From positions 1 to 41,422 of the forward strand of contig CACGHY010000009.1 of the NCBI GenBank assembly GCA_902573085.1: a DNA stretch of 41,422 nt, given 5' to 3'. A program made the translations under genes and the position numbers. A model generated the notes under the pieces. That model ran no database searches. It saw nothing but the letters and a program-made list of their open reading frames with translations, and was not told where the DNA came from. The stretch's first letter is position 1. Each line of letters begins with the position of its first letter. The DNA comes from an uncultured Candidatus Poseidoniales archaeon. Lineage in GTDB: Archaea; Thermoplasmatota; Poseidoniia; Poseidoniales; Thalassarchaeaceae. Below, one piece after another: positions 16,685 through 34,221 of the stretch.

Positions 16685-17086
16685 ATGGAATCAGAACAGA
16701 ATCGTCCCCTTACGAAGCTTATAGCGCTCTCAGCAGTCACTGCCAGCCTCTGCTGCCTGCCATCAGTCATTTGGGTCATGCTTGCTGGATCTTCGGCCAT
16801 AGTCGCAGCGGACCAGCTCTCTAACGATCTCTACTACTCCTGGGTACGATATGCCCTCTATATGGTATCAATCTCCATGCTATCTTACGGTCTGGTGGTT
16901 TATTTCCGAAACAGGGGAGTTTGTACTCTTGACGACGTGAAAAGAGAGAAGAGAAGAGTTGTCAACACAAGTCTGGCAGTTTTTACTGCGGCTATTCTGA
17001 CTTACCTGGTTTGGAATTTTGTCATTCTGGAGATTGTTGGGATAGCTATCGGCCTTCCCTGGGAGGAATCAGCGTTCTGGAACTAG
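16685..17086 (+). CDS. Small three-TM membrane protein, faintly MerT-like
   Basis: The 133-residue product has three hydrophobic segments: about 12-42, 54-72 and 94-122. The first contains a vicinal cysteine pair (SLCCLPSVIWVML). A third Cys lies in the loop after TM2 (NRGVCTLDD), followed by a basic cytoplasmic stretch KREKRR. A Cys-Cys pair in TM1 plus Cys in the TM2-TM3 loop is the layout of mercuric-ion transporters of the MerT type, but similarity beyond this is weak. I would call it a membrane protein of unknown function, possibly metal-related. It lies 11 bases after asnS and 15 bases before the acyl-CoA dehydrogenase, so it may be part of one transcript. Confidence 0.75.
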   Translation: MESEQNRPLTKLIALSAVTASLCCLPSVIWVMLAGSSAIVAADQLSNDLYYSWVRYALYMVSISMLSYGLVVYFRNRGVCTLDDVKREKRRVVNTSLAVFTAAILTYLVWNFVILEIVGIAIGLPWEESAFWN

Positions 17087-17101: not shown

Positions 17102-18349
17102 ATGTCTCATACGGCGGCCGCCCCTAGCATCACCATGTCAGATAGCTGGAGAGAGATGGATATCGGAAATCCCACTGAGGAGCACTCGATGCTTAGGGAG
17201 ATGGTTCGAAGCTTTGTCAGGGATAGGGTGGAGCCTCAGGCATTGGAGTATGACAGGGATGAGAGATTCAACCTCGAGCTTTTCCGGGAAATGGGCTCTA
17301 TGGGATTGCTAGGATTGACTGCACCATCCGAGTTTGGGGGGGCTGGAATGGATGCCACCTCAGTGGCGATCGTCAACGAAGAACTATCCTACTCGGACCC
17401 AGGCCTCTGTCTCGCATTTCTGGCTCACGACCAACTTTTCGTGAACAACTTGGTTCATAGCGGAACCGACTCCCAAAAGAAGAGAATACTGCCGAAGGTC
17501 TGTAGTGGTGAATGGGTAGGATGCCTGGGTATGAGTGAACCAAACCAAGGAACGGATGTACTTGGGATGGAGACATCTGCCAAACAATCCAACGACGGAT
17601 CTTGGACTATTAACGGAAGGAAGATGTGGATAACAAACGGAATCATCGATGATGATGGCACTCCTGCCGACGTAGTCTGGCTTTATGCTAGAACTGGGAC
17701 TGACGACAGAGGCAGGGCAGAAATAACCACATTCCTGGTCGAGAATGGCATGGAAGGCTACTCTGCGGGACAGAAGATAGAGGACAAGCTGGGCATGAGG
17801 GCGAGCACAACAGCCGAGTTGATTTTCGAAAACTGCGTTGTGCCAGAAGAGAATATCGTTGGAATGCCAGGCGAGTCGAAAATTCATCTAATGAGAAACC
17901 TCGAGCATGAAAGGGTAGCACTGGCCGCAATGAGTGTCGGCATCGCGAGAAGATGCCTCGCAGACATGAACTCCTACGCAACCGAAAGGGAGGCATTCGG
18001 AAAACAAATCAGGAACTTCGGCCAGATTCAGAGGCATATCGGTGAGTCTTGGGCCGAATACAGAGCAATGCGAGCATATGTGTACGATACGGCGAGACAA
18101 ATCGATTTGTCAAAGGCTGGCCAGAGGCTGGACTCAGACGGCGTGAAACTCTTCGCTACTACTGCAGCAAAGAACATAGCAGATAGAGCAATTCAGGTAA
18201 TGGGCGGATATGGATATGTTGGAGAATACGTTGTGGAGCGTCTTTGGAGGGACGCTAAGCTACTGGAAATAGGCGGCGGAACCCTTGAGAGCCACCAGAA
18301 GAACATCACAAAGGATCTGTCAACTGATTCTTCAGCAATAAACCGTTGA
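17102..18349 (+). CDS. Acyl-CoA dehydrogenase, isovaleryl-CoA-dehydrogenase type
   Basis: FAD-dependent alpha,beta-dehydrogenation of acyl-CoA thioesters. The 415 residues include the N-terminal helical domain, FAD-side motifs CLGMSEPNQGTD and KMWITNG, the middle beta domain KLGMRASTTAELIFENC, and the C-terminal helical domain with QVMGGYGYVGEYVVERLWRD. The place of the usual catalytic Glu (IYEGT in MCAD) is IGGGT, with Gly392. Glu270 in LEHERVALA aligns with the relocated base of isovaleryl-CoA dehydrogenase (LDLERLVLA). This points to branched substrates such as isovaleryl-CoA from leucine. Start is ATG 17102; a shorter start at 17135 is possible. With the 3-hydroxyacyl-CoA dehydrogenase at 29345 it suggests acyl-CoA oxidation. 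Confidence 0.93.
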   Translation: MSHTAAAPSITMSDSWREMDIGNPTEEHSMLREMVRSFVRDRVEPQALEYDRDERFNLELFREMGSMGLLGLTAPSEFGGAGMDATSVAIVNEELSYSDPGLCLAFLAHDQLFVNNLVHSGTDSQKKRILPKVCSGEWVGCLGMSEPNQGTDVLGMETSAKQSNDGSWTINGRKMWITNGIIDDDGTPADVVWLYARTGTDDRGRAEITTFLVENGMEGYSAGQKIEDKLGMRASTTAELIFENCVVPEENIVGMPGESKIHLMRNLEHERVALAAMSVGIARRCLADMNSYATEREAFGKQIRNFGQIQRHIGESWAEYRAMRAYVYDTARQIDLSKAGQRLDSDGVKLFATTAAKNIADRAIQVMGGYGYVGEYVVERLWRDAKLLEIGGGTLESHQKNITKDLSTDSSAINR

Positions 18350-18751
18350 TCAGTCGACATCCTCGATTACCTGCATCTGAAGATCCCCATTGGAGGCGGC
18401 GTATTCCACGGATTTGACGGCAACTTTCACTTCTTTTCCATTAAAGGGATCGATGATGTTGGGTTGACCACTCCTGAATATTGACATCAACTCATTGTAC
18501 TCAGACACTGAAGCAGTGCACAGGACATCGTAGACCGCAGACTCTGAACCCTCATCCAACAAGTCGTCCCCCTCGCCACCCCTAATGACGGTTCTTTGTA
18601 TCCTTCTCTCTATTTTGATCTTAATTTCCTTACACGGAAGGATTAATTCAACGTCTTTTGCTTTCTTTGGTTTGAGAATTGACTCCTCTTCCTCATACAG
18701 CTTACCAATCATCGTCAGGCTAAGAGGCCTGACCAACCTGTCCTCGCTCAT
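18350..18751 (-). CDS. Unknown acidic protein, beta-rich C-terminal half (133 aa)
   Basis: I do not recognise this family. The protein has no signal peptide or membrane segment. It begins with a charged region (KLYEEEESILKPKKAKDVEL), then what look like alternating beta strands (IKIKIERRIQRTVIRGG; VKVAVKSVEY; LQMQVIEDV) around a helix (SVSEYNELMSIF). The overall pattern faintly recalls phage tail-tip or baseplate beta proteins, but I cannot support that call. It ends flush with the convergent acyl-CoA dehydrogenase and is the last minus-strand gene after the duplicated cassette, 37 bases downstream of it. Confidence 0.75.
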   Translation of the reverse strand: MSEDRLVRPLSLTMIGKLYEEEESILKPKKAKDVELILPCKEIKIKIERRIQRTVIRGGEGDDLLDEGSESAVYDVLCTASVSEYNELMSIFRSGQPNIIDPFNGKEVKVAVKSVEYAASNGDLQMQVIEDVD

Positions 18752-18788: not shown

Positions 18789-19571
18789 TCATTGTTCGGA
18801 AACCAATGATGCTGTTGGGTTGAATTGATGGACTGAAACCAGTATTGTAATTTCTTCTGAGTCATCTGCAGGGCCGAACCCGCCGTATGTGTTTACATCA
18901 AGGTTGATTTGCACGGAAACCACACCGTCTCCCCACCCCTCTACCGTCCATGGTGAAAGTGCTTGGTATTCGTTAACCGCTGTTTGGTTGAAGCTCTGGT
19001 GTAGGTTGTAGTTTGGGTATGTAACTATCCTCAAGTAAATCGGTTCGCAGTCACTATCCGAACCCGAGAGAGTATTCCCCGAGTCGAACCACTGTCCAGT
19101 CAAAGTCGAATTATCTCCCAGAAGCGTAGCACTTATGGAATCACATTCCCACTCTCCCCCGTCAGAAATCCAAATTCCGTTCTCACACCTGCCTTCACTG
19201 CCTGTTCTGCCATTGCACTCTTCTGGAATAACCTTCACATCTATGTAGCCAACAAAATGCCCATCATCCACCGGTATATCGTCTAAAAAGAAGTCAATCA
19301 CTTTGACGTCTCCGTCTGCCCATATGTCGTCAAACTCGAACGTCAGGTTATCCCCATTATCGTCCACTATATTGTTTTCAAAGACAATATTCCAATTCTT
19401 TTCGGTCTTGACGTAGTCCACTAAATCGGTCTGATTTAGGACTAAGTCGGCTGAAGTGTAAGAGAAAATAAGCGCGGATGCCAAGACACAAGGCAAGTAC
19501 GCCGCCTTAGTACCATTATCTTTGAATAAATTCGAGATTATTGCACCGAAAGAACCGTCGAAATCACTCAT
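18789..19571 (-). CDS. Membrane-anchored ectodomain protein, cassette copy 2 (260 aa)
   Basis: Paralogue of the 249-aa protein at 21004-21753. A short cytoplasmic N-terminus is followed by one membrane segment (about residues 24-45, AYLPCVLASALIFSYTSADL) and about 210 extracytoplasmic residues rich in Asp, Asn and potential N-glycosylation sites. Conserved blocks shared with the paralogue are CDSISATLL, an SDCEPIYLRIVTYPNY segment with a second Cys, an EYQALSPW...GWGDGVVSVQINLDVNT segment, and an EEITILV ending. This copy has two additional Cys in the middle (ECNGRTGSEGRCENG). No known domain is recognised; it looks like a beta-sandwich. It lies 8 bases after its 444-aa partner, so the two are certainly one operon. 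Confidence 0.82.
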   Translation of the reverse strand: MSDFDGSFGAIISNLFKDNGTKAAYLPCVLASALIFSYTSADLVLNQTDLVDYVKTEKNWNIVFENNIVDDNGDNLTFEFDDIWADGDVKVIDFFLDDIPVDDGHFVGYIDVKVIPEECNGRTGSEGRCENGIWISDGGEWECDSISATLLGDNSTLTGQWFDSGNTLSGSDSDCEPIYLRIVTYPNYNLHQSFNQTAVNEYQALSPWTVEGWGDGVVSVQINLDVNTYGGFGPADDSEEITILVSVHQFNPTASLVSEQ

Positions 19572-19579
19572 CTCATCAC

Positions 19580-20914
19580 CTAAATAACCGCAGAATAAAG
19601 GGCACAGATAATCAGGCTAAAGAAAACTACACTAGCCATGCTTGCACTCATTATGTCATAATCTCTTTCATCAATTTTTAGTAAAATTAACTCGTCCATC
19701 TCCATTAACTTCTGAGAAACCGTATCCCCCTCTCTCATGAGATTGGTCATTATCCGTTCCTCCCAGCCAATGAAAATCGCCACCACCATCGCCAGAGCCG
19801 CCGAAGAGATCATTTCTGGAACCGGAAGAAATGATTGTAGAAGTTCAATGACGCTGGAAGATACAATCAACAACATCAAAATTACCATGATTCTTGTGAG
19901 CCAGCGATTTTCCGATGCATCGGAGTCAATAATGTCGAAATTTAATAGGATATACATGAATATTAGAGGGGTGAACAAGTAAACCAGTGTCTCAGATGTG
20001 AAGTCGTACCATATCTCGAATGCCGCAGGAAAACTTTCACATTCAGTTTCCACACAACTCCTCACTATGTCCATAATCGCGTAGTCTACGATTCCGGCAG
20101 TGAATCCAACAATACCGACTAGATACACGATTATTGAGAATCCACTGATTCCCATGTGATAAGTTCTCCAACTTTCGAAAAACAGCAATATCAGTATCGT
20201 ACTCGCACCCATGGAAAGTACCAAATTTGTTCCGAGCCATCCGAAGGTAGATGGCTCCCAGAGACTCCATTCAACTGCAAATCTTGCAAGAAAGTCGTTG
20301 TTTATCGAAATAACCTGTGCCAACCAATACGTCATTTGCTCCCCCAACATCGCTATTAGTAACAAGCCCGCGACCAGAGACATCCTCCTGTGAGAATTTT
20401 CTCCAGTTTCAATCTCCATCAACAGGAAGCGGATGTATACCAGAACCAGAATCATCATCCCAGGGATCAACATAAACCACTCTCCATCACTGTGCCTGTA
20501 ATCTGTAAGTATGGAAATTGTGCTGAGAATTAGTGATAGCACACATATAGAGGCAGTTACTACCTTTATATTCCATTTTCTTTGGAGAATTGGGTATGGG
20601 TAGACGAACGGAAGGAAAACCAACAAAAGAATAGAAATTGTCTTACAAGTCCTTTGGGCGAATCTGAAGAATGAATCTTGTAAATTATTGCTTGAATCTA
20701 TTATCCATAACCCTTCATTGGCGACAATTGTTTCCATCACAGATGTGAAGGTGTATTCTAATCCCTTCAAAACCAAAATCCAACCAATTATCAGACCTGC
20801 AAACTTCTCCACCCATTCTTTATCTCCCGACCTTCTGACGAGAGCTATGGTAACAAAACCCAGAATCAAATCAACAATCGCCGCAACTGGAACGAGCGAC
20901 TGACTCTCCGCCAT
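19580..20914 (-). CDS. Polytopic (about 12-TM) membrane protein, cassette copy 2 (444 aa)
   Basis: Paralogue of the 452-aa protein at 21764-23122; family not recognised. About 12 hydrophobic segments cover the whole length. Blocks conserved between the copies are YPYPILQRK after TM3, the extracytoplasmic CVETEC pair (residues about 290), NFDIIDSD, ELLQSFLPVPEMISSA and FIGWEERIM near TM10-TM11. Conserved Glu residues inside or at the edge of TM10/TM11 suggest a functional site in the membrane. No ATP-binding or redox motif is seen. It is co-transcribed with the 260-aa anchored protein. It could be a transporter, sensor or envelope-processing enzyme; the sequence does not tell. Confidence 0.85.
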   Translation of the reverse strand: MAESQSLVPVAAIVDLILGFVTIALVRRSGDKEWVEKFAGLIIGWILVLKGLEYTFTSVMETIVANEGLWIIDSSNNLQDSFFRFAQRTCKTISILLLVFLPFVYPYPILQRKWNIKVVTASICVLSLILSTISILTDYRHSDGEWFMLIPGMMILVLVYIRFLLMEIETGENSHRRMSLVAGLLLIAMLGEQMTYWLAQVISINNDFLARFAVEWSLWEPSTFGWLGTNLVLSMGASTILILLFFESWRTYHMGISGFSIIVYLVGIVGFTAGIVDYAIMDIVRSCVETECESFPAAFEIWYDFTSETLVYLFTPLIFMYILLNFDIIDSDASENRWLTRIMVILMLLIVSSSVIELLQSFLPVPEMISSAALAMVVAIFIGWEERIMTNLMREGDTVSQKLMEMDELILLKIDERDYDIMSASMASVVFFSLIICALYSAVI

Positions 20915-21003
20915 GGGCTTACTGTAGGACCATTTTTTTTCAAGTCTATGTCGAGTTTACTGGGTATTTCCGCTTTTCTAGATATGGCAAGAACTCTGTA
21001 CAA
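20915..21003 (-). promoter_or_regulatory. Spacer between the two cassette copies, possible internal promoter
   Basis: This 89-base gap separates the first cassette's last stop from the second cassette's start. On the minus strand it contains an A8 tract (plus-strand T8 at about 20932-20939) 20-25 bases before the ATG. The tract could be a promoter element for copy 2 or a remnant of the duplication. All other cassette gaps are 8-10 bases. Confidence 0.3.
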
Positions 21004-21753
21004 TCACATCCCTATGTCAACTTGGAAAGCACTAGCGAGAAAACCAATGACCTCGACAGTGATGGTTATTTCCTCGTCGTCGTCAGTAGCAAAAGGTCCT
21101 GGCTCGGCAGTGTTAACATCCAAATCCACTTTGATTTCCAGTACGCCCTCTCCCCAACCGATATTCTTCCACGGCTGCAATACCTGGAAATCATTTACTC
21201 CAGAAACCGTTATGTTCTCACCCTGGTAGTCGGGATAAACCAATAACGAAAGCTGGATATCCTCACAACTGCTATCCTGAGCTGAAAGTATATTCCCCTC
21301 TGACTCCCATTGGGCCGTAAGATCATTTACAACCACACTTGCAGATATTGCATCGCACTGTGCAACAGGGTCCGCAATACTGAATCCGTCAACGGTATCC
21401 GGTGAGACCGTGATATTTATCATACCAACAGTGTAACCCTCAAATGGCAGCAATTCACTATCGTCCATGTAGAACTCAATAATCCTGCTTTCCTCGTCTT
21501 GCCAGACGTCCTGAAACTCGGAGCCCGTCGTTGATTGGTTAAATTCTACTATCCAGGTTTTCTGTGTTATAGCATCCAGACCTTTCTTGTATTCCGAAGT
21601 CAGCCACCCATGCATATTGAAAGTACATACAATTAATGTGAAAACTGAAAAAAACAACATAGCTAAATTTGCCTCTCTGGAAGAAAAAAGTTCAGATGAA
21701 GACTCTATGAGCCCCCTATCTGACTCATCTTTCACTATTTGTTTCTCTGTCAT
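21004..21753 (-). CDS. Membrane-anchored ectodomain protein, cassette copy 1 (249 aa)
   Basis: Family not recognised. A cytoplasmic N-terminus of about 27 charged residues precedes a single membrane segment (about 29-50, LAMLFFSVFTLIVCTF), then an extracytoplasmic domain of about 195 residues. It shares with the 260-aa paralogue CDAISASVV, SCEDIQLSLLVYPDY, DFQVLQPW, GWGEGVLEIKVDLDVNT and the EEITITV ending. The two shared cysteines probably form a disulfide. It follows the 452-aa membrane protein by 10 bases. The constant pairing suggests that the ectodomain protein and the polytopic protein form a complex (inference). Confidence 0.82.
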   Translation of the reverse strand: MTEKQIVKDESDRGLIESSSELFSSREANLAMLFFSVFTLIVCTFNMHGWLTSEYKKGLDAITQKTWIVEFNQSTTGSEFQDVWQDEESRIIEFYMDDSELLPFEGYTVGMINITVSPDTVDGFSIADPVAQCDAISASVVVNDLTAQWESEGNILSAQDSSCEDIQLSLLVYPDYQGENITVSGVNDFQVLQPWKNIGWGEGVLEIKVDLDVNTAEPGPFATDDDEEITITVEVIGFLASAFQVDIGM

Positions 21754-21763
21754 TCAATCCCCT

Positions 21764-23122
21764 CTATTGGTGAATCCCCATCACTTCGAACAAGAAAGAA
21801 ATAACGAATGCATAGACACACAAAATCATCATTGTCAACGAATAGAATCTATAGTCTCCTTCGGATAATTCGTAACTAGGGATGGACATCACCAATCTTA
21901 CTGATTCGGTGACATTTTTGGTTTTGGATATCAGTTGCTTCATTATTTTTTCTTCCCACCCGATGAAAGCCACCACACCTGCCGCAAAAACGGCAGAAGT
22001 AATCATCTCGGGAACGGGCAATATCAACTGAATCAGTTCGATTAACGTAGAGCTCGTTACTAGTATCAATAGCAAACCCGTGGTCCTGCCAATAACTAGG
22101 CCCCAGCCTGTGTCAGTGTCGACAATGTTGTAGTTCAACATCACATACATGACTAGGAGGGGGACTCCGATGTAGAGCATTATTTGGAATGTAATAACAT
22201 AGAAATTTATCCACGCAACACTGAGAAGATCACAAGAGCTCTCAACACAAGAAGTGATATTATCCATGTATACCAGTGTCAGGAGGAACCAAATAACCCC
22301 CAACCCGAACATTCCTCCTGTCAAATAAGTTAGACCACTGGAACCCTTGTTGAAAGCTCTCCACATCTCGCCAAGGAAGAGAGCCAGAAAAGAACCAACC
22401 AAGAGGGCTTCGAGGACTACTTCCGCCATCCCGCTAATCTTAGTCTGTTCTACGAAGTCCTCAACCATGAATCTCCCTCTGTAGATATTAGCCTGCCCAC
22501 TAAGTTGGATAAGCCAAAACATGTAGAATTTCCCATTCCATGCCATCAGGAGAAGTGCTGCGACCGAGGAGACGTTTCTAGACTCCTTTTCGCCATTGAG
22601 CATTTCACCGAATAAGAACCTCAAATAAATCGCAGTCCAGACTACATATCCAATCATCCATGGTAGGTTCCTGACGTTCCTGTAGGAAAACTCCGTGAAA
22701 ATGTCAAATGGAATCATAACCATGCCGAGTATAAGTACAATTATGCCCAATATCCTGGCTGCTGATTTTCTTTGAATCAAGGGGTACGGGTAAATGAGCG
22801 GAAGAACAGAAAGACCGATGGTGTATCCGCATTCAAATGATCTTTGAGCGTAAGTTAGAAACGTGTAAAATACCTCATCACCGTAATTATTGTACACCCC
22901 AGTCGCTCTGGTTGTTACTCTGTATTCCAGTATCGAAACGAAGAGGTATTGGAAACCGAGAAAAATCAAAACCCACGATATAGTGTACCCTGCTAATCTT
23001 TCATTCCACTCTCTTCCTTTTGCTCTGCTCACCAGAAACAACGCCATCAGCCCGAGAGAAATGTGAACAAATGCAGCTATCGGAGATAGCGTATTTATTG
23101 TCTCGTAGTTTTCATCCGCCAT
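21764..23122 (-). CDS. Polytopic (about 12-TM) membrane protein, cassette copy 1 (452 aa)
   Basis: Family not recognised. About 12 membrane segments start near residues 12, 42, 97, 125, 153, 184, 228, 262, 305, 350, 383 and 427. Blocks conserved with the 444-aa paralogue are YPYPLIQRK, CVESSC (external pair), NYNIVDTD, ELIQLILPVPEMITSA and FIGWEEKIM. The N-terminal blocks also match (AxFVHISLGLMALFLV versus AxIVDLILGFVTIALV; KGREWNERLAGYTISW versus GDKEWVEKFAGLIIGW), so the homology covers the full length. First gene of the minus-strand block, 54 bases downstream of tRNA-Gln. No transport or enzyme family can be named. Confidence 0.85.
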   Translation of the reverse strand: MADENYETINTLSPIAAFVHISLGLMALFLVSRAKGREWNERLAGYTISWVLIFLGFQYLFVSILEYRVTTRATGVYNNYGDEVFYTFLTYAQRSFECGYTIGLSVLPLIYPYPLIQRKSAARILGIIVLILGMVMIPFDIFTEFSYRNVRNLPWMIGYVVWTAIYLRFLFGEMLNGEKESRNVSSVAALLLMAWNGKFYMFWLIQLSGQANIYRGRFMVEDFVEQTKISGMAEVVLEALLVGSFLALFLGEMWRAFNKGSSGLTYLTGGMFGLGVIWFLLTLVYMDNITSCVESSCDLLSVAWINFYVITFQIMLYIGVPLLVMYVMLNYNIVDTDTGWGLVIGRTTGLLLILVTSSTLIELIQLILPVPEMITSAVFAAGVVAFIGWEEKIMKQLISKTKNVTESVRLVMSIPSYELSEGDYRFYSLTMMILCVYAFVISFLFEVMGIHQ

Positions 23123-23336: not shown

Positions 23337-26300
23337 GTGCGAGGTAGGTTTGTACTACTATCGATTGTCTTGCTATTATCCTCCTCGCTGTCCTTTTTGG
23401 CCCACGGAGACACTCCGGACAACGACGAGAATTCTCATTTCGAACATAACCCATCTAGAGAAAAGGGTACCACGAATCCGTGGGTAGAAGAGTCTCTTAT
23501 AGAAAGACACGCCACTGGACAAAAGAACATCCGTGTAACTGCCATAACTAGCTCTTTAGGCCACTTGGACACTTGGCAGAGGCAGATAGGAGCTTTGGAC
23601 AGACAAGCGCCTGCAGGACCCGGGGAGACATTCCGTCACAATGAAATATCCTCCAATGGAAACGAACACCGGACATTTTGGCTAAACTCCTCGTTGTTGC
23701 CAAAGCTTTCCAGAGTCTCAGGAATCTTGGCTTTATTGGATGCCGAAAATTCTCCCGAGCCCTATGGGATATTACCTCTCGAGCCAAGTCCCAATACCGT
23801 GAGATCCGGAGAATTACATGGTGCGAATGATGCTTGGGAGATGGGTTTCTCTGGAGAGGGGCTAATAGTCGCAGTTGCGGATACGGGAGTCGACTTCGCC
23901 CATCCCGATCTGAACGGAACCCAGGCCAGAGTAGGATTCCAGAGCTCCTCATACTATGGCTGGCCTCTTATGTTCGATCACAATAGTATGTACACATGGA
24001 TGGTCGACGGAAAGGCCTATCCTGAGTCAAATACGTGGTACTCTGATACATCCACCATAGATTTTGATAATGACTCCGACGGGATACTTGACGAATCGGG
24101 TTTGAATATCACCGGAGTGAACCAATCTCTCTCGGGAGAGTATCACTTAGGGGAGCATCCTGACTGGCGCCTGCGCGACAAGGCCGGTGGCGAGGTACCT
24201 ATTCTGGTCGTGGATGATAGATTACCAGGGGTATACGAGACCGTTTGGCCCGATACGGATAGAGATGGTTGGTTCGGTAATGAGACTCCAATGCGACCGG
24301 GCGAGGAGACATCCGGTAGGGACACGGACGGGGATGGTCTCTGGGACGTCTCCGCCGGACTGGTATACTGGGTATCCGACGGACTGAATGGGGTGCCCTA
24401 CGGAGGCACCTATTCAGCCAGGCATGGTTACTCTGACAGGATCGCGGGACCAGGCAACCTGACTCTTTTCATGCTAGAGTCTGGGAGCCATGGGACACTT
24501 TGTGCCAGCGCCATTTCCGCTCAGGGCGTCGTTGACGATGGTAGAGTCCTGGGGATGGCGCCTAATGCCACGATTTCCTCAATTGGAAACCACTACTCGG
24601 GGGGGGCACTCATTGGATGCCTGGAGATTCATTGCCGAGGGCTATGATGGAGATCCAAGCACACCAGATCAACCGCACATAGGGTCTTTCTCTTTCGGTT
24701 ATTCTTCCGTTGACGACTCTGGGGCCGATGGATATTCTCTGTATCTAGACTGGATTACCAGAGTTTACAACTCAAATGCCTCATATGCCGTTGCAATCGG
24801 AAACGGGGGACACGGCTTCGGAACTACAAAGGTGCCAGGTGCTGCCCATGGGGTATTCTCAGTGGGCGCTTTCAGCAGCCGCTCCTCCGATTCATGGGGA
24901 CAGAGCGCACCATGGTCGAACAGGGGTCCGAACGCAGTTGGAAGGATGGATCCCGACATCGTAGCGGTCGGTTGGTCAGCAACTGGTGACATGCCACTCA
25001 ACAACTATGACAATGCAAACCAGGCATGGACGACATGGGGGGGAACCAGCCTGGCCACACCAGTAGTGGCCGGCCTCCTCGCTCTGGTGGAGGAGGCTTG
25101 GCTCCAAAACAGGGGATACCATCCCAGATCGCAAGAGCTTCGCGACTTCGTACTATCAACCTCGGATGACAGAGGGTACGAGTCCTTTGTCCAAGGAGGT
25201 GGTTGGATGAACGCCTCTCGCGCTGTAAAAACCCTAGCCGGAGAGAACGGGACTTGGTCTGCATCCCCTGCACAATGGAATACGGGTTTTTTCCACGGCA
25301 CCCACAGAGACGCGAACCTGAATTACATAGCACCGGGAGAATCACAGACATTCGATGTAAAATTCGAAAACCCCGGATCATCAGAGCTACAACTCAATCT
25401 GACACCGGTTTCTTTCCGACCTCTCTCTCACGAGGTCCTAGTCTGGAACAGCAAAGGAAACGGATCAGGAGGGGGGGAGAATGACACATGGGACGGTCAC
25501 CAAGGAGACAGGCCTGACCTGCTCATACCCATACACATAACCAACGATTCATCGCACCAACTTCATTCAGACACGGTACAATTCAGGGCAAGGGCAACTA
25601 TCCAATACGACGCATTCGACCATGATCTGGATAGATCTTCTATGGAGCGGGCGTATCTCGAGATTTTCAGATGGACCGACTTCGACGGCGATGGCATATT
25701 CCACAACGATACCGACAACGACGGGATGGTCGATGAGTCAGAATGGGAGGACTCCGACGAGCTCGAGGAAGTCACCTATTGGTGGTCACATGGCCCTCAA
25801 GCCGAGGTAAGAATGGGTCATCCTTTCGAAGATGCCCGAGACGGACTGCTTCTCGGAGTCTGGAGGCACGATGCAAGCCCTTCGGGCCTCGACCCTGTGA
25901 GGATAGAGATCGATTGGACTACCTTCGGGATCTCCGATGACGAATGGATATCCACGAGCCAGAACATCGAAATCGGGCCAAGCGACGACCACATAGTACC
26001 TGTCACGGTCTCAGTACCAGAAGACGCCACACCGGGCCTGCGCCAACACGGCATTCTTGTCCAATCACAACCAGCGGATGATCCTGACAATTACAGGAGA
26101 TGGACCCTGCCAGTAGTTACAAATGTCCCATGGGAGGGTCCCTTCTCCCTGTTACCTAAGCCCTTAGACGGCAACGTAACCAACCAGACCCTGTACACCG
26201 AATCCTGGATCAGCGGAGCGATGCGATGGGGATGGAGGCCCGAGAGCGGGGACTGGAGGTTCCTCACAGTCGATTGGCCCGAGGAACTCGACCAAGACGG

Positions 26301-29300
26301 GGCGATTATTCTAGATGTTGATTGGGATGACAACCCCTACACGGACATAGATGTGCTCTGGCTTACCGAGACGACTCATGGATACTATGATGACGATCCG
26401 GACTCATACGGGCCCACCACATTCTTCATTGAAGAACGATCAGTGAACAATCACGCCACGAGCGGGCAGCACAATTGGGGGACCTACACGGGCACCTCCA
26501 GAGAGACCTTTGCAGTCCAAGCAACGCCTGGGATTCACCAAATGATCCTCCACACCGCACTGCACGGGGTGGAGACCAACGACAATCCCCTCAACATCTC
26601 AGTCGGGTACATCACAGCAGAATCCTCAGGTTTCAGCCGGACTGTTTCAGACTGGTCAGAGTCCGAAGGGAACGATACCGCCCTCGTAGTATCTACAATG
26701 CCCATGCCGGTGGAGTCCGTTTCGTCCCATGGTTGGGTCAGACCCATTTACCTGGACAACCAGGTAGCATTCCAGGACGACCCTGGTGACAAGATGACCG
26801 CATCTTGGTGGTACAACATGACCGTGGAGGAGGCATCCGAGCTCACCATCTCAATGGACTCTTACGATAGCGTAGACCTTGACCTATTCCTCTTCAGAGA
26901 CGGAGACGGAGACGGGATTTTCTCCTCAAGTGAAGAAGTCACGAGATCATGGAGCGGAACCTCGTCGGAAACGATCTCATTAAATGATCCTGAGGACGGA
27001 CTCTACGGCGTAGCGGTCCACGGGTATTCGGTGGACGGGGAGGGAGCCGACTTCTGGATCGACATCGAGGTCGTCGCAGGATCATCCTTGGAAGTACCCT
27101 CGTTCACCGATCTAAACGAATCAGCAATTTCCGAAATTTGGCCCACCGGGTCAGATTCCCTAGGCGGACGAGTTCCCACCGGGGCAGTAGAGCTGAACAT
27201 CAGCTACCTAAGACCTCCCGAGGAAGGGAACTGGACAGGTTTCATCGACCTGGCCCTCGAGGGAGGTGCGCTGATCAGGCTCCCATATCACTACGAGTTA
27301 GTGGAGCTTGACCCAGAGATATCTTTCACCGCCCCCCAGAACCTCACCGAAACAAACACACAACTGCCGATAACTCTGCATGCTTCAGACACCGGCATAG
27401 GATTCCGCCTCTCCCATCTGACTTGGACATGGCCGTCTAACAACACGACATTCCCAGCAGACTCGGTTTGGGGGTTATCCACAAACGGGACCCTCCACGA
27501 ACTCACCTCTTATTGGAATGGTATCGACAACACATCCGACAACCTTCTCCTTAGGGAGGCCTGGGTGAACTCGACACTCCCCGCTACAGAGCAGTGGTTC
27601 GAATTCCACGCGGTGGTCTCGGACGCTTCTGGACGCACATCCTCATCGGACCTTGCTGTATCCTATGATGTCACATCCCCTATGCTGGCCATTCACGGTG
27701 TTCCTTGGATAACAAACAACGAGACACTGGACTTCCAAATACAAACCGAGCCAGGATCAAAACTAGTCGTAGAAGGCACATTTGTCGAGACTAACAAGGA
27801 AGGCTTAGCCAACCTCTCCTTCGTACTGGAGGAATCTGAGATGGGCCTATACACCGGGCAATCAGGAGATCAGTCGTTCTACTACAACGACGACAAGAAC
27901 GTTTTCGAAATCTCCTCTACGGACAACGCAGGAAACTCGGCTACAGCCTCTTTCCAGGTCGTTTACGACCCCTCTCCTCCTTCCGAAGTCTCTCTCATCA
28001 CACTGCAGGACCAGGCATTCTACACCTACGGCCCGACTGACCTGCAACACCCGATCAACATAACAACCGGCGAGGTGATCCTGGAAATCCCAGCTGATAC
28101 GATGGAATGGTGCGTCTTCGTACTGTACTTCTCATGGGTCCAGACCTCAGATTGCACCGAGGCCACATCTCGGCCGCCAATCCTGAACGCGACCACAGGA
28201 TTCCCACTTCCCGGAACCGACGAATACGAAGAAACTACGGAGATCTCCGTCCCACTCTCCCTAGAAGGCCTGGGGGAGGGGGAATTAGCCATAACGATAT
28301 CACTGGAGGACTGGGCCGGAAACACACACCATAGAAATTGGTCCCTGACCATGGACTCAATTGCTCCTCAAATATCCTGGGTACTTACCCCATCAACCGG
28401 AGATACACTCGGGGACCATGTGCAGAACCTTTCCTGGTGGTCTTCGGAGGAAGTGTCCCTGAGAGTGGTCGTCAACGGTGTAGAGCTGGCTGTTCAGAAC
28501 GGTTCTTCCGGGTCCAAAGCGATGGTTCTGAACTCCACAGGAAGCCAAGCATTCTGCCTCCATGCGGTAGACCGGACCTCTCCTCAGGAAAACAACAACT
28601 CGTTCCATGAGTGCAGGGAAATGCAACTGCCTGAGTCAAACTACGACACATCGGTATCTGGAAGTAGCCAGCCCCTGGTCTCACTCGATAGCATAGACAT
28701 AATCCTGGACAGGCATCCGTCACAAGAAGTCCGCTGGACCAGCCTCACAACAGGCTCAACGGGGGTGGTGGAACCGGGCACAGACAACCCAGTCCTATTG
28801 CTCGATCTGGTTGAAGGCCAGAACGAATTCCTGATTGAGATAGACTCACTAGATAGCACGGACTCCTACACAATTTCTGTAGAGCTAGACTCTACCCCCC
28901 CAGTACTGACGCTCTTGGAGAAGACCTACCAGGGCTCCACATTGTCGAATCTCAGGGAGGTTTTCGGAGATTGCGAACCCGGGCTTCTAGTTAGGATAAG
29001 CAGCGAAGTCCAATCGAGAGACCTAATCTGCCCCGAGACAGGCACCTTCCATCAGAACATCACCGTCCCCGACTCACCCGGGCAGCACACCTTGGAGGGA
29101 TTCTCAATGGATCAAGCCAAGAACGCGAACCAATACCAAATTGACGTACTGAAGCAAGACTGGATAGATTGGGCTGTAGACGATGCTCGGAACTCCGGGA
29201 CAATGCTGTGGGTATTCTCCCTGAGCGGTATTGCGACTCTCTCCGTCGTCATTGCAATAACTCTTAGAATAGCCAGAAGAAGGATTGGCCGTTCGGAGTA

Positions 29301-29301
29301 G
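23337..29301 (+). CDS. Giant secreted subtilisin-like serine protease, C-terminal anchor (apparent frameshift at 24599-24606)
   Basis: Exported S8 (subtilase) endopeptidase, about 1,987 residues after repair. GTG at 23337 opens a clear signal peptide (MRGRFVLLSIVLLL...FLAHG). Catalytic Asp182 is in VADTGVDFAHPDL, His385 in GSHGTLCASA, oxyanion Asn489 in AIGNGGHG, and Ser571 in GTSLATPVVAG. The 200-residue Asp-His spacer holds DxDxDG calcium loops. After the protease come a FDGDGIF..DNDGMVDE calcium loop, a PPC-like beta domain (about 1145-1240), several Ig-like beta domains, and one C-terminal TM (WVFSLSGIATLSVVIAITL) with a basic tail. The first frame ends at 24647; the second carries on from an 8-G run at 24599-24606, and seven G give HYSGGHSLDAWRF without a break. 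His and Ser lie in different frames, so the gene cannot work as written. Confidence 0.92.
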
Positions 29302-29344: not shown

Positions 29345-30193
29345 ATGACAGTCCAATCGGTAGGAGTCATCGGCTCCGGGCAGATGGGGAACGGGATCGC
29401 TCAGGTCGCTGCTTGTAGCGGCATGGATGTTATCATGGTCGACATAAAAGAGGAACTCCTCGAAAAAGGGATTTCAACGATATCCAACTCATTGGATAAG
29501 CTTGCTTCAAAGGGGAGCTTTACCCAAAGGGAGGCCTCTTCCGCCCTTTCCAGAATCAGTACATCAGTGAGCATGGAAGAGCTCTCGGAATGCGACCTAG
29601 TCGTCGAGGCGATACCCGAGATACCCGAACTCAAGTTCAGCACGTTCAGGGAACTGGACTCCATATGCAAGCCAGGGGCGATCCTGGCAAGCAACACATC
29701 CAGCATCTCGATAAACGAGATAGCTAGCCACACAAGAAGGGCAGATCGTGTAATAGGGATGCACTTCATGAACCCGGTCCCGATAATGAAACTCGTAGAG
29801 ATAATCAACGGTGACGAGACCTCAGAAGAGGTCACTTCCGAAGTGATTTCTGCCTCCGAGGAGATGGGGAAGATCCCGCTTTCTTGCATGGACTCCCCCG
29901 GATTCGTCAGCAACAGGATTCTAATGCCAATGATAAACGAGGCAATCCTGACTCTGCAGGAAGGCGTAGCAGAGCCAGACGCAATTGACGGGATAATGAA
30001 GCTGGGGATGAATCACCCAATAGGCCCACTGGCTCTTGCAGACCTGATTGGCTTGGATACTGTAATGCACATTCTGAAAGTACTCCAGGAAGGCATGGAA
30101 GACGTGAAGTACGCACCCGCAGATCTACTGGTCGACAAGGTATCCAAAGGTGAGCTTGGAAGAAAGTCCGGTAAAGGATTCTATGACTACTAA
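29345..30193 (+). CDS. 3-hydroxybutyryl-CoA dehydrogenase (3-hydroxyacyl-CoA dehydrogenase)
   Basis: NAD(P)-dependent oxidation of 3-hydroxyacyl-CoA to 3-ketoacyl-CoA in beta-oxidation or the butyrate-type pathway. The 282-residue protein starts with the Rossmann motif GSGQMGNG (residues 10-17) in VGVIGSGQMGNGIAQVA. It carries VVEAIPE, LASNTSSISINEIA, and the HxFNPxxxxxLVE-type catalytic block (GMHFMNPVPIMKLVEII, His140, with Met for the usual Phe-Asn spacing). The C-terminal domain has DSPGFVSNRILMPMINEAI and ends GRKSGKGFYDY. The frame is open to 29285, but ATG 29345 gives the family length. It is a soluble enzyme placed between secreted giants; T-rich sequence follows its stop. Confidence 0.94.
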   Translation: MTVQSVGVIGSGQMGNGIAQVAACSGMDVIMVDIKEELLEKGISTISNSLDKLASKGSFTQREASSALSRISTSVSMEELSECDLVVEAIPEIPELKFSTFRELDSICKPGAILASNTSSISINEIASHTRRADRVIGMHFMNPVPIMKLVEIINGDETSEEVTSEVISASEEMGKIPLSCMDSPGFVSNRILMPMINEAILTLQEGVAEPDAIDGIMKLGMNHPIGPLALADLIGLDTVMHILKVLQEGMEDVKYAPADLLVDKVSKGELGRKSGKGFYDY

Positions 30194-30209
30194 ACCGTTG
30201 CACTCGCGT

Positions 30210-30251
30210 GCGGTGTTTTTTTTACACTATTTTTCTTTTACACTATTTTTC
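30210..30251 (+). terminator. T-rich terminator with perfect 16-bp tandem repeat
   Basis: After the 3-hydroxybutyryl-CoA dehydrogenase stop comes a T8 run (about 30216-30223), as expected for an archaeal oligo-T terminator. TTTTACACTATTTTTC occurs twice in perfect tandem (30220-30235 and 30236-30251). The second copy, about 40 bases before the next ATG, may also act as the TATA element of the downstream gene. Confidence 0.55.
30220..30251. repeat. Perfect tandem duplication, 2 x 16 bp
   Basis: Two identical adjacent copies of TTTTACACTATTTTTC lie in the intergenic space. See the terminator entry for the likely role. Confidence 0.85.
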
Positions 30252-30287
30252 ACCAAACTTCAAGTCATACGAGTTAATGGGTATATC

Positions 30288-33200
30288 ATGATAGAGCGTG
30301 CTCGTTCAGTTTCTATCGCGGCCATTCTGTGTATCAGTTTTCTGGCCATGCCGGTAATTGCCGATAACGATGCCGGAAGCGGAGCCGATGCCGGTGACAG
30401 TAGCTCCACAGCAGCTAACCTAAGCGCTATGAACGGGACTTATTATGGAAATCTAACTACGGGAGACGAGGACTGGTATTCCATTCAGATGCCAAATAAT
30501 ACCGCTCTAGCAGCCACTTTGTACGGGTACAGCACCTCAAACGACTTCGATCTGGAGATATACTCATCCTCGGGCTCGCGTATTGACTACTCTTGGTACG
30601 ATGATCCCAATGAGGAGGTCTCCTCAAATGGTACTAGCATAGGAGGGACGAACGTAACACTGAGGGTTGATGCATATTCTGGTTCGGGCGGATACACTCT
30701 GCAGATCTGGATTTTCGCCGAACCACAGGGGCCTCCTCAAAACGATGCAGGAACCGGGGGGGATGCAGGAGACTCTCTGTCATCAGCTACGCATCTTAAC
30801 GGTACTAATCAAACTGTATCGGGATGGATTTCCGACTCTTGGGATCAGCAAGATTGGTACAATATCACAATCCCAGCTAATTATGGCATTTTCGTGTCCA
30901 TGGAGTTCCCCAACGGAACCTTCGCAGTTACCGAACTGTCAATCATCGAATCTAGCGGGAGCTATTACATCAACTACGACTATTCATCGCCATATGAGGT
31001 CACCAGCAATGGGACTAACGTCGCAGGAAGCACCATTTTCATACGGGTAATTACCCCCTCCCAATGGACAACTTCCTCTGGCGACGAAGGTTACTACAAT
31101 CTAACCATTTCTTTGTTTTCGACTTCTAGTCAACCTGGTTCTAGTCAGGATGATGCGAACTCGGGTACCGATGCGGGAGGAACAATGGGCACAGCGCTTA
31201 CAGTTAACCTCACAGGACTTCAGTCTACATTCCCAGGATGGGCAGATGAGAACTGGGATTCAGCGGACTACTACTCATTGTACATCCCAGAAAACTGGAG
31301 CTCTTGGGCTTCTCTATCGTGGGTAAACTCATCCGCAGATTTGGATCTGTATCTTTACGACTCATCAGGTAACTCAATCGATAGTAGCGCCGGATTAAGC
31401 AATCCCGAGGAAGTTTCTGCAAATTCTTCTTCCTTGGGGAATAGTACCATATTTTACAGAGTTTTGTGTTATTCTGGAATCGCAGTAGATTACAACTTGA
31501 CCATCGGACTGGTCAATCTCTCAAGCAGTCCCGCATTCAATCAGAACGACGCAAACTCTGGGGGGGATGCCGGCGATGATTTCTCAACTGCTCTGGCCTT
31601 ACCTTCTGTCAATGGGACATACTACGGTTTTGTTTCTGACTCCTCTGACAACTATGATATCTACTCCGTCCAAGTCCCATCCAGCGTCGCCATAGAGGTA
31701 GAGCTTTCATGGAACAACTCCGCAAACGACTTCGATCTCGGACTTTACGATGAGAGCCAGTCTCTGATAGACTCCAGCCTGTCCGACAACCCAGAATTCG
31801 TCGATAGCGGCTCCACAGACGTAAGCAACACGACAGTCTACATCCTGGTACAGTCCGTTTCGGGCTCCTGGGGCAACGGAGGTGAGGGGGAATACACTCT
31901 GAACACCACATTCGTGAACCAGTCTGAGGTTCCTGGCCTGAACCAGAATGACGCATACACGAGCGGGGATGCGGGGGACGAGTATTCCAACGCCACCCCC
32001 CTAGTCAACGCAACGACCGGCTTTTCGATATGGCCTGGGTACGTCGACAGCGGTTCAGACGACTACGACTACTACCAAGTGTACGTACCCTTAGACCATG
32101 GAATTTCCCTCGAGCTATCCCCCGGGGCCGGCCAGTCGGACTGGCTGACACTTGCACTCTATGACAGCTCCAACAGCCAGATAGACTCCTCCCTGTCCTC
32201 CAACCCACAGGCCGTTTCCACAAACGCCTCGGGGACCTTCACGGGAGGCTCGAACCTCGTGATAGAGGTCTGGGCCTACAGCGGGGGTGACAACTACAAC
32301 CTGTCAATGTGGATATTCACTCTGGATGCGGATGGAGACGGCTACTATGACCAAGTGGAGTACTCATGTGGCTCCGATCCTAATGACAACTCCAGCACAC
32401 CCTCGGACGTGGACAACGACGGGACATGCGACCCGCTGGACGAGGACATCGACGGTGACGGGGTGGACAACGCGAACGACACATTCCCGGAGGACTCTAA
32501 CGAGACCACGGACAACGATGGCGATGGCATCGGAGACAACGGCGATACGGACGATGACAACGACGGCTGGGCCGACTCGGACGAGTACACGTGCGGTTCT
32601 GATGCGAATGACGCTGACTCTTACCCCGACGACTTCGACTCGGACTGGACCTGCGATGTTCTAGACGAGGACATAGACGGAGACGGGTATGATAACCAGT
32701 TCGACAGCTTCGACTTCGACCCCAACGAGTGGAACGACACCGACTCGGACGGAATAGGGGACAACTCAGACGGAGACGACGACGGCGACGGATTCTACGA
32801 CGGGGTCGAGGAAGACTGCCTGTCTGATCCACTAGACTCCTCCTCGACACCTGAGGACACCGACTCAGACGGGGTGTGCGACGAGCTGGACGATGACGTT
32901 GACGGGGACGGTATAGGCAACGACCTCGATGACTTCCCATTCGATGACTCCGAGAGCACAGACACGGACGGTGACGGGATTGGGGACTCGGCCGACCCAG
33001 ACGACGACAACGATGGATACCAGGACGCCTTCGACGCATTCCCACTGGACTCCAATGAGTGGAACGACAACGATGCCGACCTCATCGGAGACAACGCGGA
33101 CCCGGACGACGACAACGACGGGTGGGACGATGCGGACGAGGAGTCCTGCGGTACCAACCCCTCCCTTGTGCAATCTGCCCCACAAGACTGGGACGGTGAC

Positions 33201-33980
33201 AGGCTCTGTGACGTGAACGACCCGGACGACGACAATGACGCATGGAATGACACTGTTGACGCATTCCCGTACGATCCCAACGAGTGGGACGACCTTGACG
33301 AGGATGGCCTGGGGTCAAACTCGGATCCCGACGATGACGGGGACGGTTGGAGCGACGACGACGAACTCAGCATATGCGGGACCGACCCCCGGGACCGGCT
33401 CTCCTTGCCAGCAGACTTCGACGGAGACTGGATTTGCGACAACCTAGACGACGATGACGACAACGACTTGGTACTGGACTTCGACGACGCCTTCCCGAAG
33501 GACCCAACCGAGACCAAGGACACGGACGGAGATGGCATCGGAGACGGCTCAGACACCGATGACGATGGCGACGGATGGGCTGATTCCGCTGAGGTGGTCT
33601 GCCAGACATCCCCGATCTCCGCCACGGAAGAGCCATCGGACTTCGACGGGGATGGAACATGCGACCTGATAGACCCGGACGACGACAACGACGGTTGGGC
33701 GGATTACCAGGATGCCTTCCCATTCGACAGCCTTGAGTGGGAGGACAGGAACTCGGACGGGCTAGGGGACAATGCCAACCCACTCACGATAATGGACAAT
33801 ATGAGGCTCAATCCCGGAGTGTCTGTAATTGCAGTCGGTTCAGTGGCCGCGATGCTTTCCGGCACACTAGCTTTCTTCTTCGGGAGAAGCAGGCTGAAGG
33901 TGCAATTCGACGACGACCAGGGTTGGGACGAGGGGCCAGAAGAGGGCGACGGATACTACGACGAATGGGAGTACCAGTAG
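30288..33980 (+). CDS. Secreted PPC / thrombospondin-type-3-repeat surface protein, 1,230 aa, C-terminal anchor
   Basis: Probable calcium-binding surface stalk or adhesin. ATG 30288 gives a signal peptide (MIERARSVSIAAILCIS..MPVIA); the frame is open to 30150 but overlaps the upstream gene. Five PPC-like beta domains follow, each starting with a QNDAxSGxDAG-type motif, near residues 26, 151, 287, 419 and 552. From about 680 to 1164 come DxDxDG/DxDNDG repeats of the thrombospondin-type-3 kind. In these, six modules hold a Cys pair at constant C-x19-C spacing. A TM helix near 1177-1200 (VSVIAVGSVAAMLSGTLAFF) is followed by an acidic, aromatic cytoplasmic tail. The extracellular part has many N-x-S/T sites. 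No enzyme motif is visible. Its promoter probably lies in the T/A-rich leader at 30194-30287. Confidence 0.92.
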   Translation: MIERARSVSIAAILCISFLAMPVIADNDAGSGADAGDSSSTAANLSAMNGTYYGNLTTGDEDWYSIQMPNNTALAATLYGYSTSNDFDLEIYSSSGSRIDYSWYDDPNEEVSSNGTSIGGTNVTLRVDAYSGSGGYTLQIWIFAEPQGPPQNDAGTGGDAGDSLSSATHLNGTNQTVSGWISDSWDQQDWYNITIPANYGIFVSMEFPNGTFAVTELSIIESSGSYYINYDYSSPYEVTSNGTNVAGSTIFIRVITPSQWTTSSGDEGYYNLTISLFSTSSQPGSSQDDANSGTDAGGTMGTALTVNLTGLQSTFPGWADENWDSADYYSLYIPENWSSWASLSWVNSSADLDLYLYDSSGNSIDSSAGLSNPEEVSANSSSLGNSTIFYRVLCYSGIAVDYNLTIGLVNLSSSPAFNQNDANSGGDAGDDFSTALALPSVNGTYYGFVSDSSDNYDIYSVQVPSSVAIEVELSWNNSANDFDLGLYDESQSLIDSSLSDNPEFVDSGSTDVSNTTVYILVQSVSGSWGNGGEGEYTLNTTFVNQSEVPGLNQNDAYTSGDAGDEYSNATPLVNATTGFSIWPGYVDSGSDDYDYYQVYVPLDHGISLELSPGAGQSDWLTLALYDSSNSQIDSSLSSNPQAVSTNASGTFTGGSNLVIEVWAYSGGDNYNLSMWIFTLDADGDGYYDQVEYSCGSDPNDNSSTPSDVDNDGTCDPLDEDIDGDGVDNANDTFPEDSNETTDNDGDGIGDNGDTDDDNDGWADSDEYTCGSDANDADSYPDDFDSDWTCDVLDEDIDGDGYDNQFDSFDFDPNEWNDTDSDGIGDNSDGDDDGDGFYDGVEEDCLSDPLDSSSTPEDTDSDGVCDELDDDVDGDGIGNDLDDFPFDDSESTDTDGDGIGDSADPDDDNDGYQDAFDAFPLDSNEWNDNDADLIGDNADPDDDNDGWDDADEESCGTNPSLVQSAPQDWDGDRLCDVNDPDDDNDAWNDTVDAFPYDPNEWDDLDEDGLGSNSDPDDDGDGWSDDDELSICGTDPRDRLSLPADFDGDWICDNLDDDDDNDLVLDFDDAFPKDPTETKDTDGDGIGDGSDTDDDGDGWADSAEVVCQTSPISATEEPSDFDGDGTCDLIDPDDDNDGWADYQDAFPFDSLEWEDRNSDGLGDNANPLTIMDNMRLNPGVSVIAVGSVAAMLSGTLAFFFGRSRLKVQFDDDQGWDEGPEEGDGYYDEWEYQ

Positions 33981-34221
33981 ATAATGGTGTACTTTTTGCA
34001 CCTTGTGTGTTTTTTTTACCGAAATATTGCCAAATACCCTTTTCAACCAATTTACATAAAACAGCAAAAAAAATTGAATATATTTTCCTTATCCGAAGAA
34101 TACTTCCTAAAAATGGTATTTTATGAGAATTATTTTCCGGATTAGTGAAAAATTATCAGGATGAGCATACTGAGAGATGTTTATATTTGATACAAAGCCT
34201 GATAGTCACTAAGTGACGCCT
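33981..34221 (+). promoter_or_regulatory. AT-rich intergenic leader with TATA box at 34180-34188
   Basis: This 240-base stretch is far richer in A/T than the surrounding genes and holds no credible ORF. TTTATATTT at 34180-34188 lies about 34-42 bases upstream of the ATG at 34222, so transcription would start near 34210 and leave a very short leader. The remaining 150 bases show A- and T-tracts and may carry regulator sites; I see no clear palindrome. Confidence 0.55.
33995..34018 (+). terminator. Oligo-T terminator after the 1,230-aa surface protein
   Basis: TTTTTGCACC and then GTGTGTTTTTTTT (T8 at 34010-34017) follow the stop codon within 40 bases; GGTG...CACC could form a small stem before the T run. 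This suits an archaeal terminator. Confidence 0.55.

Follow-up and report, generated by a model that had tools for sequence, protein, structure and literature searches.

Among described proteins, the nearest counterparts of the system reported here are the archaeal sensors of the HisKA_7TM type (PF16927), in which seven membrane helices are accompanied by a kinase or another output domain. The uncultured Poseidoniales rank among the most abundant archaea in surface ocean waters, and proteins and lipids are thought to sustain them (PMC9723583). We analyzed 41,422 nucleotides from one such archaeon (assembly GCA_902573085.1, contig CACGHY010000009.1, positions 1 to 41,422), a stretch referred to as the window. 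Judged from its open reading frames (ORFs), positions 18789-23122 of the minus strand hold two two-gene units, cassettes A and B, each consisting of a gene for a membrane protein with 12 transmembrane (TM) helices, named Large, and a gene for a single-pass protein, named Small. This previously unnamed cassette is confined to the Poseidoniales (marine Group II archaea). Unlike the HisKA_7TM proteins, Large has 12 helices, with additional helices TM10-TM12 that carry the motifs E..Q...P and GWEE, and it has an obligate external partner in place of a kinase or other output domain. With a probability of roughly 45%, we propose that Large and Small form a surface ligand-recognition complex which is descended from 7TM sensor-type proteins and which either signals or is coupled to uptake.

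Pairing of Large and Small

In cassette A, the upstream one, a gap of 10 bases separates Large A (452 amino acids, positions 21764..23122, minus strand) from Small A (249 amino acids, 21004..21753, minus strand). In cassette B, the gap between Large B (444 amino acids, 19580..20914, minus strand) and its partner Small B (260 amino acids, 18789..19571, minus strand) is 8 bases. The arrangement is the one described in the original prediction, as is the paralogy of the two pairs over their full length. Large A and Large B share 32% identity over 444 aligned amino acids (E 3e-75), Small A and Small B share 36% over 204 amino acids (E 9e-36), and all motifs quoted earlier as common to the copies are present. 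A third, more distant pair was found on another contig of the source genome (G000:C21, locus L033).

A Small gene lies directly downstream, on the same strand, of every complete cassette-type Large gene (about 96 distinct ones, excluding loci cut by a contig end), and the gaps are mostly between -34 and +13 bases. The identity matrices of the two proteins correlate with r 0.917 over 92 distinct pairs, whereas the best of 1000 permutations reached 0.093. Because linkage alone also yields a correlation, this value indicates that partners have not been swapped rather than that they are in physical contact. The two genes have also been lost together in the genome G124, where remnants of Large and Small are joined between otherwise collinear flanks. 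The evidence for the pairing is strong, and a physical complex of the two products is the state that we infer from it. The survey of other Poseidoniales genomes, in which the two genes are not mostly apart, supports the earlier argument from retained pairing to a complex, with a restriction of its scope: complete cassette-type Large genes are always paired, and distant relatives of each partner occur without the other. An apparent natural fusion of Large and Small (L127, an ORF of 723 amino acids) was rejected, the codon at the junction being TNA, a stop codon with an ambiguous base.

The distant relatives of Large in the Poseidoniales (L190-type and L194/L199-type) are full-length homologs (99.9% in hhalign). 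In the members examined, they are followed by a single-pass gene with a cytoplasmic N-terminus, as is the Large of the cassettes. Instead of Small, however, the partner is either a protein that combines a SAP domain with external repeats or one whose N-terminus is acidic and whose external tail is short, and the GWEE motif is altered to GWE in one subgroup and FE in the other. The SAP-type partner was read directly behind the Large relative at L190, L191, L201 and L202 (cluster c18); it spans the membrane once, its SAP domain lying N-terminally in the cytoplasm and its repeated modules outside. Small likewise has a core relative (L249-L266), which is a full-length homolog (E about 1e-22 to 1e-34) with a single TM helix and a beta domain. 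It lies beside the rpL10/L12 genes or their neighbors, is syntenic in the 18 loci read, and has no adjoining Large. With distant Small matches included, 219 of 319 genomes are positive. Since relatives of both proteins occur in other contexts, the cassette combines two older protein families of the Poseidoniales.

Architecture and remote kinship

AlphaFold modeled Large A with 12 TM helices (pLDDT, the predicted local distance difference test, 84; pTM, the predicted template-modeling score, 0.87). Lysine and arginine are concentrated in the inner loops of Large (15.3 per protein, vs 3.6 in the outer loops), which places both termini outside. For Small A, the model consists of a long N-terminal helix followed by a beta sandwich (pLDDT 86, pTM 0.74), corresponding to a cytoplasmic N-terminus, a TM helix at about residues 30-50 and an external domain with the cysteine pair C133/C163. 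This pair is present in 36 of the 42 members, and the external domain is acidic. The models and the loop charges thus agree with the topology first proposed, i.e., about 12 TM helices in Large, and one N-terminal helix plus an external domain in Small.

Residues G24, P112, G275, E362, Q365, P369 and G388-W389-E390 are invariant in all 43 Large proteins. E362, Q365 and P369 lie at the outer end of TM10, and the conserved membrane residues are E252, E362 and Q365. The GWEE motif (residues 388-391; codons at 21950..21961, minus strand, in Large A) is at the cytoplasmic end of TM11. Both cysteines of the external CVExxC motif, which reads CVESSC in the TM8/TM9 loop of Large A (residues 292-297; 22232..22249, minus strand), are found in 25 of the 43 family members. 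The ratio of non-synonymous to synonymous substitution rates (dN/dS) could be computed in two comparisons only, one for Large and one for Small, as synonymous sites were saturated in most others. The values, 0.046 for Large B against the single cell AG-457-A01 and 0.122 for Small A, indicate purifying selection, and the constraint on Large B in the sole measurable Large comparison is strong.

Neither protein reached a family in Pfam, NCBIfam, PADLOC or PHROGs, and no convincing sequence relative was found in the PDB. The original statement that no family could be named therefore stands with respect to these libraries, but Large turned out to be remotely akin to HisKA_7TM-type proteins. Several candidates for Small were considered. 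Jelly-roll matches (E 1e-4, TM-score 0.2-0.3) were taken as generic beta-sandwich similarity. The CuA ligands of cytochrome oxidase subunit II are not matched, with no histidine or methionine among the conserved positions of Small. Archaeal type IV pilins and archaellins were also considered, and no class III signal peptide ([KR][GA] before the hydrophobic helix) was seen by eye in 42 aligned Small proteins.

The kinship of Large was examined by hhalign on a small set of profiles, through two unnamed families of the Thermoplasmatota, c31 and the bridge family (for example L071:6870-8363, which belongs to c31, as well as L301 and L303). Large matched an enlarged alignment of c31 and bridge proteins at 92.4-92.5% (P 5e-7), with TM9-TM11 in register, vs 0.1-0.5% for reversed controls and at most 1.4% for seven unrelated membrane families. 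TM1-TM3 are matched collinearly as well, but more weakly (27%, P 7e-4). The bridge family matches c31 at 99.2%, and the two combined match HisKA_7TM at 95-96%. Directly, Large matches HisKA_7TM at 17%, against about 1% in reversed controls. One bridge protein scores above the Pfam HisKA_7TM cut-off (32.2 vs 28.6 bits), and the Large hidden Markov model (HMM) matches another directly (E 1.4e-5). By inspection, Large and HisKA_7TM share, in the same order, R...W..., (F/Y)P, and, beyond the final receptor helix, [LR]x[RHN]x[LF]x[DG]. Similarly, the helix layout of the c31 and bridge proteins is collinear with that of Large through TM11, including the TM9-TM11 core and an S..E motif in TM10. Kinship of Large with HisKA_7TM-type sensors through these two intermediate families is therefore probable, though remote and not proven.

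The two intermediate families differ from Large at the C-terminus and in their gene context. Their C-terminal part is a helical, TerB-like domain in the cytoplasm, for which the PDB comparison gave weak similarity to Tic110 and COG3793, whereas Large ends in TM12; and no Small adjoins them in the arrays examined. The bridge proteins belong to another, related class of the Thermoplasmatota. HisKA_7TM-related proteins with 9-11 TM helices and a TerB-like cytoplasmic end occur in tandem arrays at L331, L332, L333 and L334, and the genome G340 alone has 32 matches. Receptor families form such arrays too.

The architecture also bears on the main rival to surface recognition, namely that the cassette is a transporter. 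Large would then be a permease or channel and Small an external subunit that captures the substrate or gates its entry, each cassette importing a different product of surface hydrolases. Twelve TM helices with conserved membrane residues, and no cytoplasmic domain, are what such a permease might look like. However, Large has no similarity to transporter families in Pfam, NCBIfam or the PDB, the sole remote kinship found is with sensor-type 7TM proteins, and its relatives bear a cytoplasmic helical domain where the cassette has a partner. We regard a transporter as unlikely, and the gene neighborhood adds points on both sides (see below).

Distribution, exchange and deletion of cassettes

A profile built from 43 Large proteins matched 102 of 319 Poseidoniales genomes. 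When 293 genomes sampled from the phylum were scanned, those outside this order gave no match. In a scan of 84,980 prokaryote species, the matches were Poseidoniales-type records only. One record titled 'Rhodobiaceae bacterium' (L157, CALDQY010000024.1) carries a Poseidoniales cassette on the same contig as G055:C24 and is probably a mislabeled metagenome-assembled genome. The presence of the cassette is patchy, even inside one genus.

The window cassettes lie in a slot between a secreted S8 subtilase gene with a PPC domain (23337..29301, plus strand, divergent from the cassettes) and an acyl-CoA dehydrogenase-like gene, so named by inspection of its sequence (17102..18349, plus strand). The contents of this slot vary among genomes: A alone (L053, L116 and L117), a B-type cassette alone (L127, L149, L150, L131 and L132), A2+A (L204), or A+B (the window and L112; L113 and the single cell AG-457-A01 are consistent with A+B). 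In G124 only a deletion scar is left. Its flanks are 72-75% identical to the window, and between them the initial 27 codons of Large run, out of frame, into about 24 codons of a Small.

The original prediction read the two cassettes as a tandem duplication. They are adjacent, on the same strand and similar over their whole length, as expected if one cassette had simply been duplicated locally inside the source genome. In a tree of 108 Large proteins, however, window A groups with copies of its own and related genera, and window B falls in a different, well-supported clade, both clades having members from other genera. Because the two copies belong to separate old clades and the slot contents differ among genomes, local duplication is disfavored, and we consider it very improbable. 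A and B are old paralogs that stand side by side at one exchangeable slot, with no recent local duplication. The two copies may serve two substrates or ligands, as was also proposed; such a division of labor would fit their divergence.

A cassette also seems to have moved between families. G112, from another family, carries a cassette (L052) whose Large is 83% identical to Large A and nested in the clade of the window genus. The contig is native, since a 235-amino-acid flanking protein is matched in two genomes of G112's own genus, G243 (100%) and G241 (82%). Given this nested position of the copy, a transfer from one family to another explains the data most simply. The flanks of the G112 cassette match those in G243 at about 98% identity, but G243 lacks 5.1 kb that include the cassette, except for the last codons of Small. 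At the G243 junction (L337 4559-4575 vs L052 3570 and 8712), a 17-base overlap joins the 3' end of Small to codons of a TSP3 gene, and this suggests that the deletion arose by recombination between short repeated codons for acidic residues.

Cassettes also lie close to contig ends. Thirty-one of 47 are within 2.5 kb of an end, where 12.3 would be expected, and none of 200,000 simulations reached 31. Assembly breaks occur at repeats and strain-variable sites, and the position of the cassettes is consistent, as indirect evidence, with variability at the population level. In G114, two nearly identical cassettes (L125 and L126) lie on separate contigs with common upstream genes, representing either a recent duplication or strain variants assembled twice.

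Patchiness, exchange, deletion and the location at assembly breaks, together with the acidic external beta domain, would also suit a surface-structure module, which either anchors, matures or protects surface proteins or acts as a virus attachment or exclusion factor diversified by viruses. Against this stand the absence of viral homologs of the cassette in IMG/VR and of any defense-family match (PADLOC anti-phage models gave only sub-threshold noise), the purifying dN/dS of 0.05-0.12 where it is measurable, and the lack of a general enrichment of long secreted neighbors. We consider this explanation quite improbable.

Neighboring genes and proposed function

The flanks of the cassettes are diverse, with 75 different combinations. 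One recurrent neighbor is a lipobox-bearing alpha/beta hydrolase (esterase) related to polyhydroxybutyrate (PHB) depolymerase. The copy beside the third cassette of the source genome scores above the PF10503 cut-off. A PHB-depolymerase-like esterase lies within 2.3 kb of a cassette in nine loci (about seven of them independent), and in four loci it immediately follows Small in the same orientation, 21-137 bases away. Strong copies of the esterase number 18 in 16 genomes, some of which were chosen for the esterase pattern. At this density of roughly one per genome, we estimate that chance alone would produce about 0.3 such cases. These neighbors suggest that organic matter is used at the cell surface. 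The operon-like link to a surface lipoprotein esterase in several loci, the secreted subtilase at the window slot, and a patchy, exchangeable content typical of nutrient-uptake genes also speak for the transporter described above, whereas no energy-coupling partner lies nearby.

Other genes around the window cassettes are less informative. A 133-amino-acid soluble protein of no known family (18350..18751, minus strand; cluster c2) is directly downstream of the cassettes on the same strand. In related genera it lies 3' of the cassette in two distinct chromosomal locations, and it remains in G124, from which the cassette is deleted; that it is part of the system is unproven. The S8 subtilase (its intact copy L053 matches PF00082 at E 8e-34) is split in the window into the overlapping ORFs 23337-24647 and 24490-29301 (overlap 24490-24647), with a single ORF of about 2000 amino acids in related genomes, and the split is a frameshift or an assembly error. 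An S8-Small fusion in single cell AG-457-A01 (L128) was set aside as a probable amplification chimera, S8 being divergent in other genomes, and a domain common to S8 and Small was dismissed when a clean HMM gave no match. Adjoining the S8 gene are giant surface proteins (30150-33980 and 34213-39570) with weak TSP3 and PPC matches. On the other side, a membrane protein of 133 amino acids with weak MerT similarity (16685-17086; cluster c5) keeps its synteny.

We propose the following model for surface recognition. Each gene pair would encode one cell-surface membrane complex. Large would derive from the archaeal HisKA_7TM-type sensor superfamily, with nine receptor-like helices and two helices bearing S-E-Q-P and GWEE, and would have lost the cytoplasmic output domain of its relatives and gained a twelfth helix. 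The beta-sandwich domain of the single-pass Small would project outside and probably rest against Large on its outer face. Most likely, the complex would recognize an external ligand, probably organic matter freed by surface hydrolases. The event may then be relayed to some partner inside the cell by way of the conserved cytoplasmic face (GWEE, YPxP...K), or be coupled to uptake. Different cassettes would have different specificities, and whole cassettes would be exchanged for one another, stacked or deleted at the chromosomal slots. Ligand recognition, the difference in specificity, the choice between signaling and transport, and the biochemical activity are all inferred.

Several results weigh against this model. 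The link to HisKA_7TM is indirect, as none of the 43 cassette-type Large proteins matches PF16927 at E <= 10. Foldseek gave no structural match for Large at E <= 1e-3; G-protein-coupled receptors account for most of its best matches in the PDB library and for the top two in the viral library, but at E 0.04 at best, with a query TM-score of 0.35 and about 10% identity, this similarity to 7TM receptors is not significant. Neither AlphaFold nor the topology shows a cytoplasmic output domain in Large, and no conserved signaling partner lies beside the cassette. Conservation does not clearly differ between the outer and inner faces of Large (p 0.067), so the receptor pattern of 'variable outside, constant inside' is not clearly seen. 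Most cassettes adjoin neither an esterase nor a protease, and their neighborhoods show no general excess of long secreted proteins (p 0.15).

A bolder proposal, which we regard as rather unlikely, is that the cassettes represent a new class of archaeal receptors, in which a kinase-less 12-TM protein derived from 7TM sensors and its dedicated co-receptor with an external beta domain are traded among marine archaea as interchangeable specificity cassettes beside surface hydrolases. To our knowledge, the means by which Poseidoniales recognize or take up proteins and lipids are poorly known. As a membrane system, the cassette recurs within this order only, is exchanged, and lacks annotation in the libraries searched. 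It may represent a sensor family whose output domain has been lost and which has acquired a partner outside the cell; the ligand and the downstream partner of the cassette can therefore be tested.

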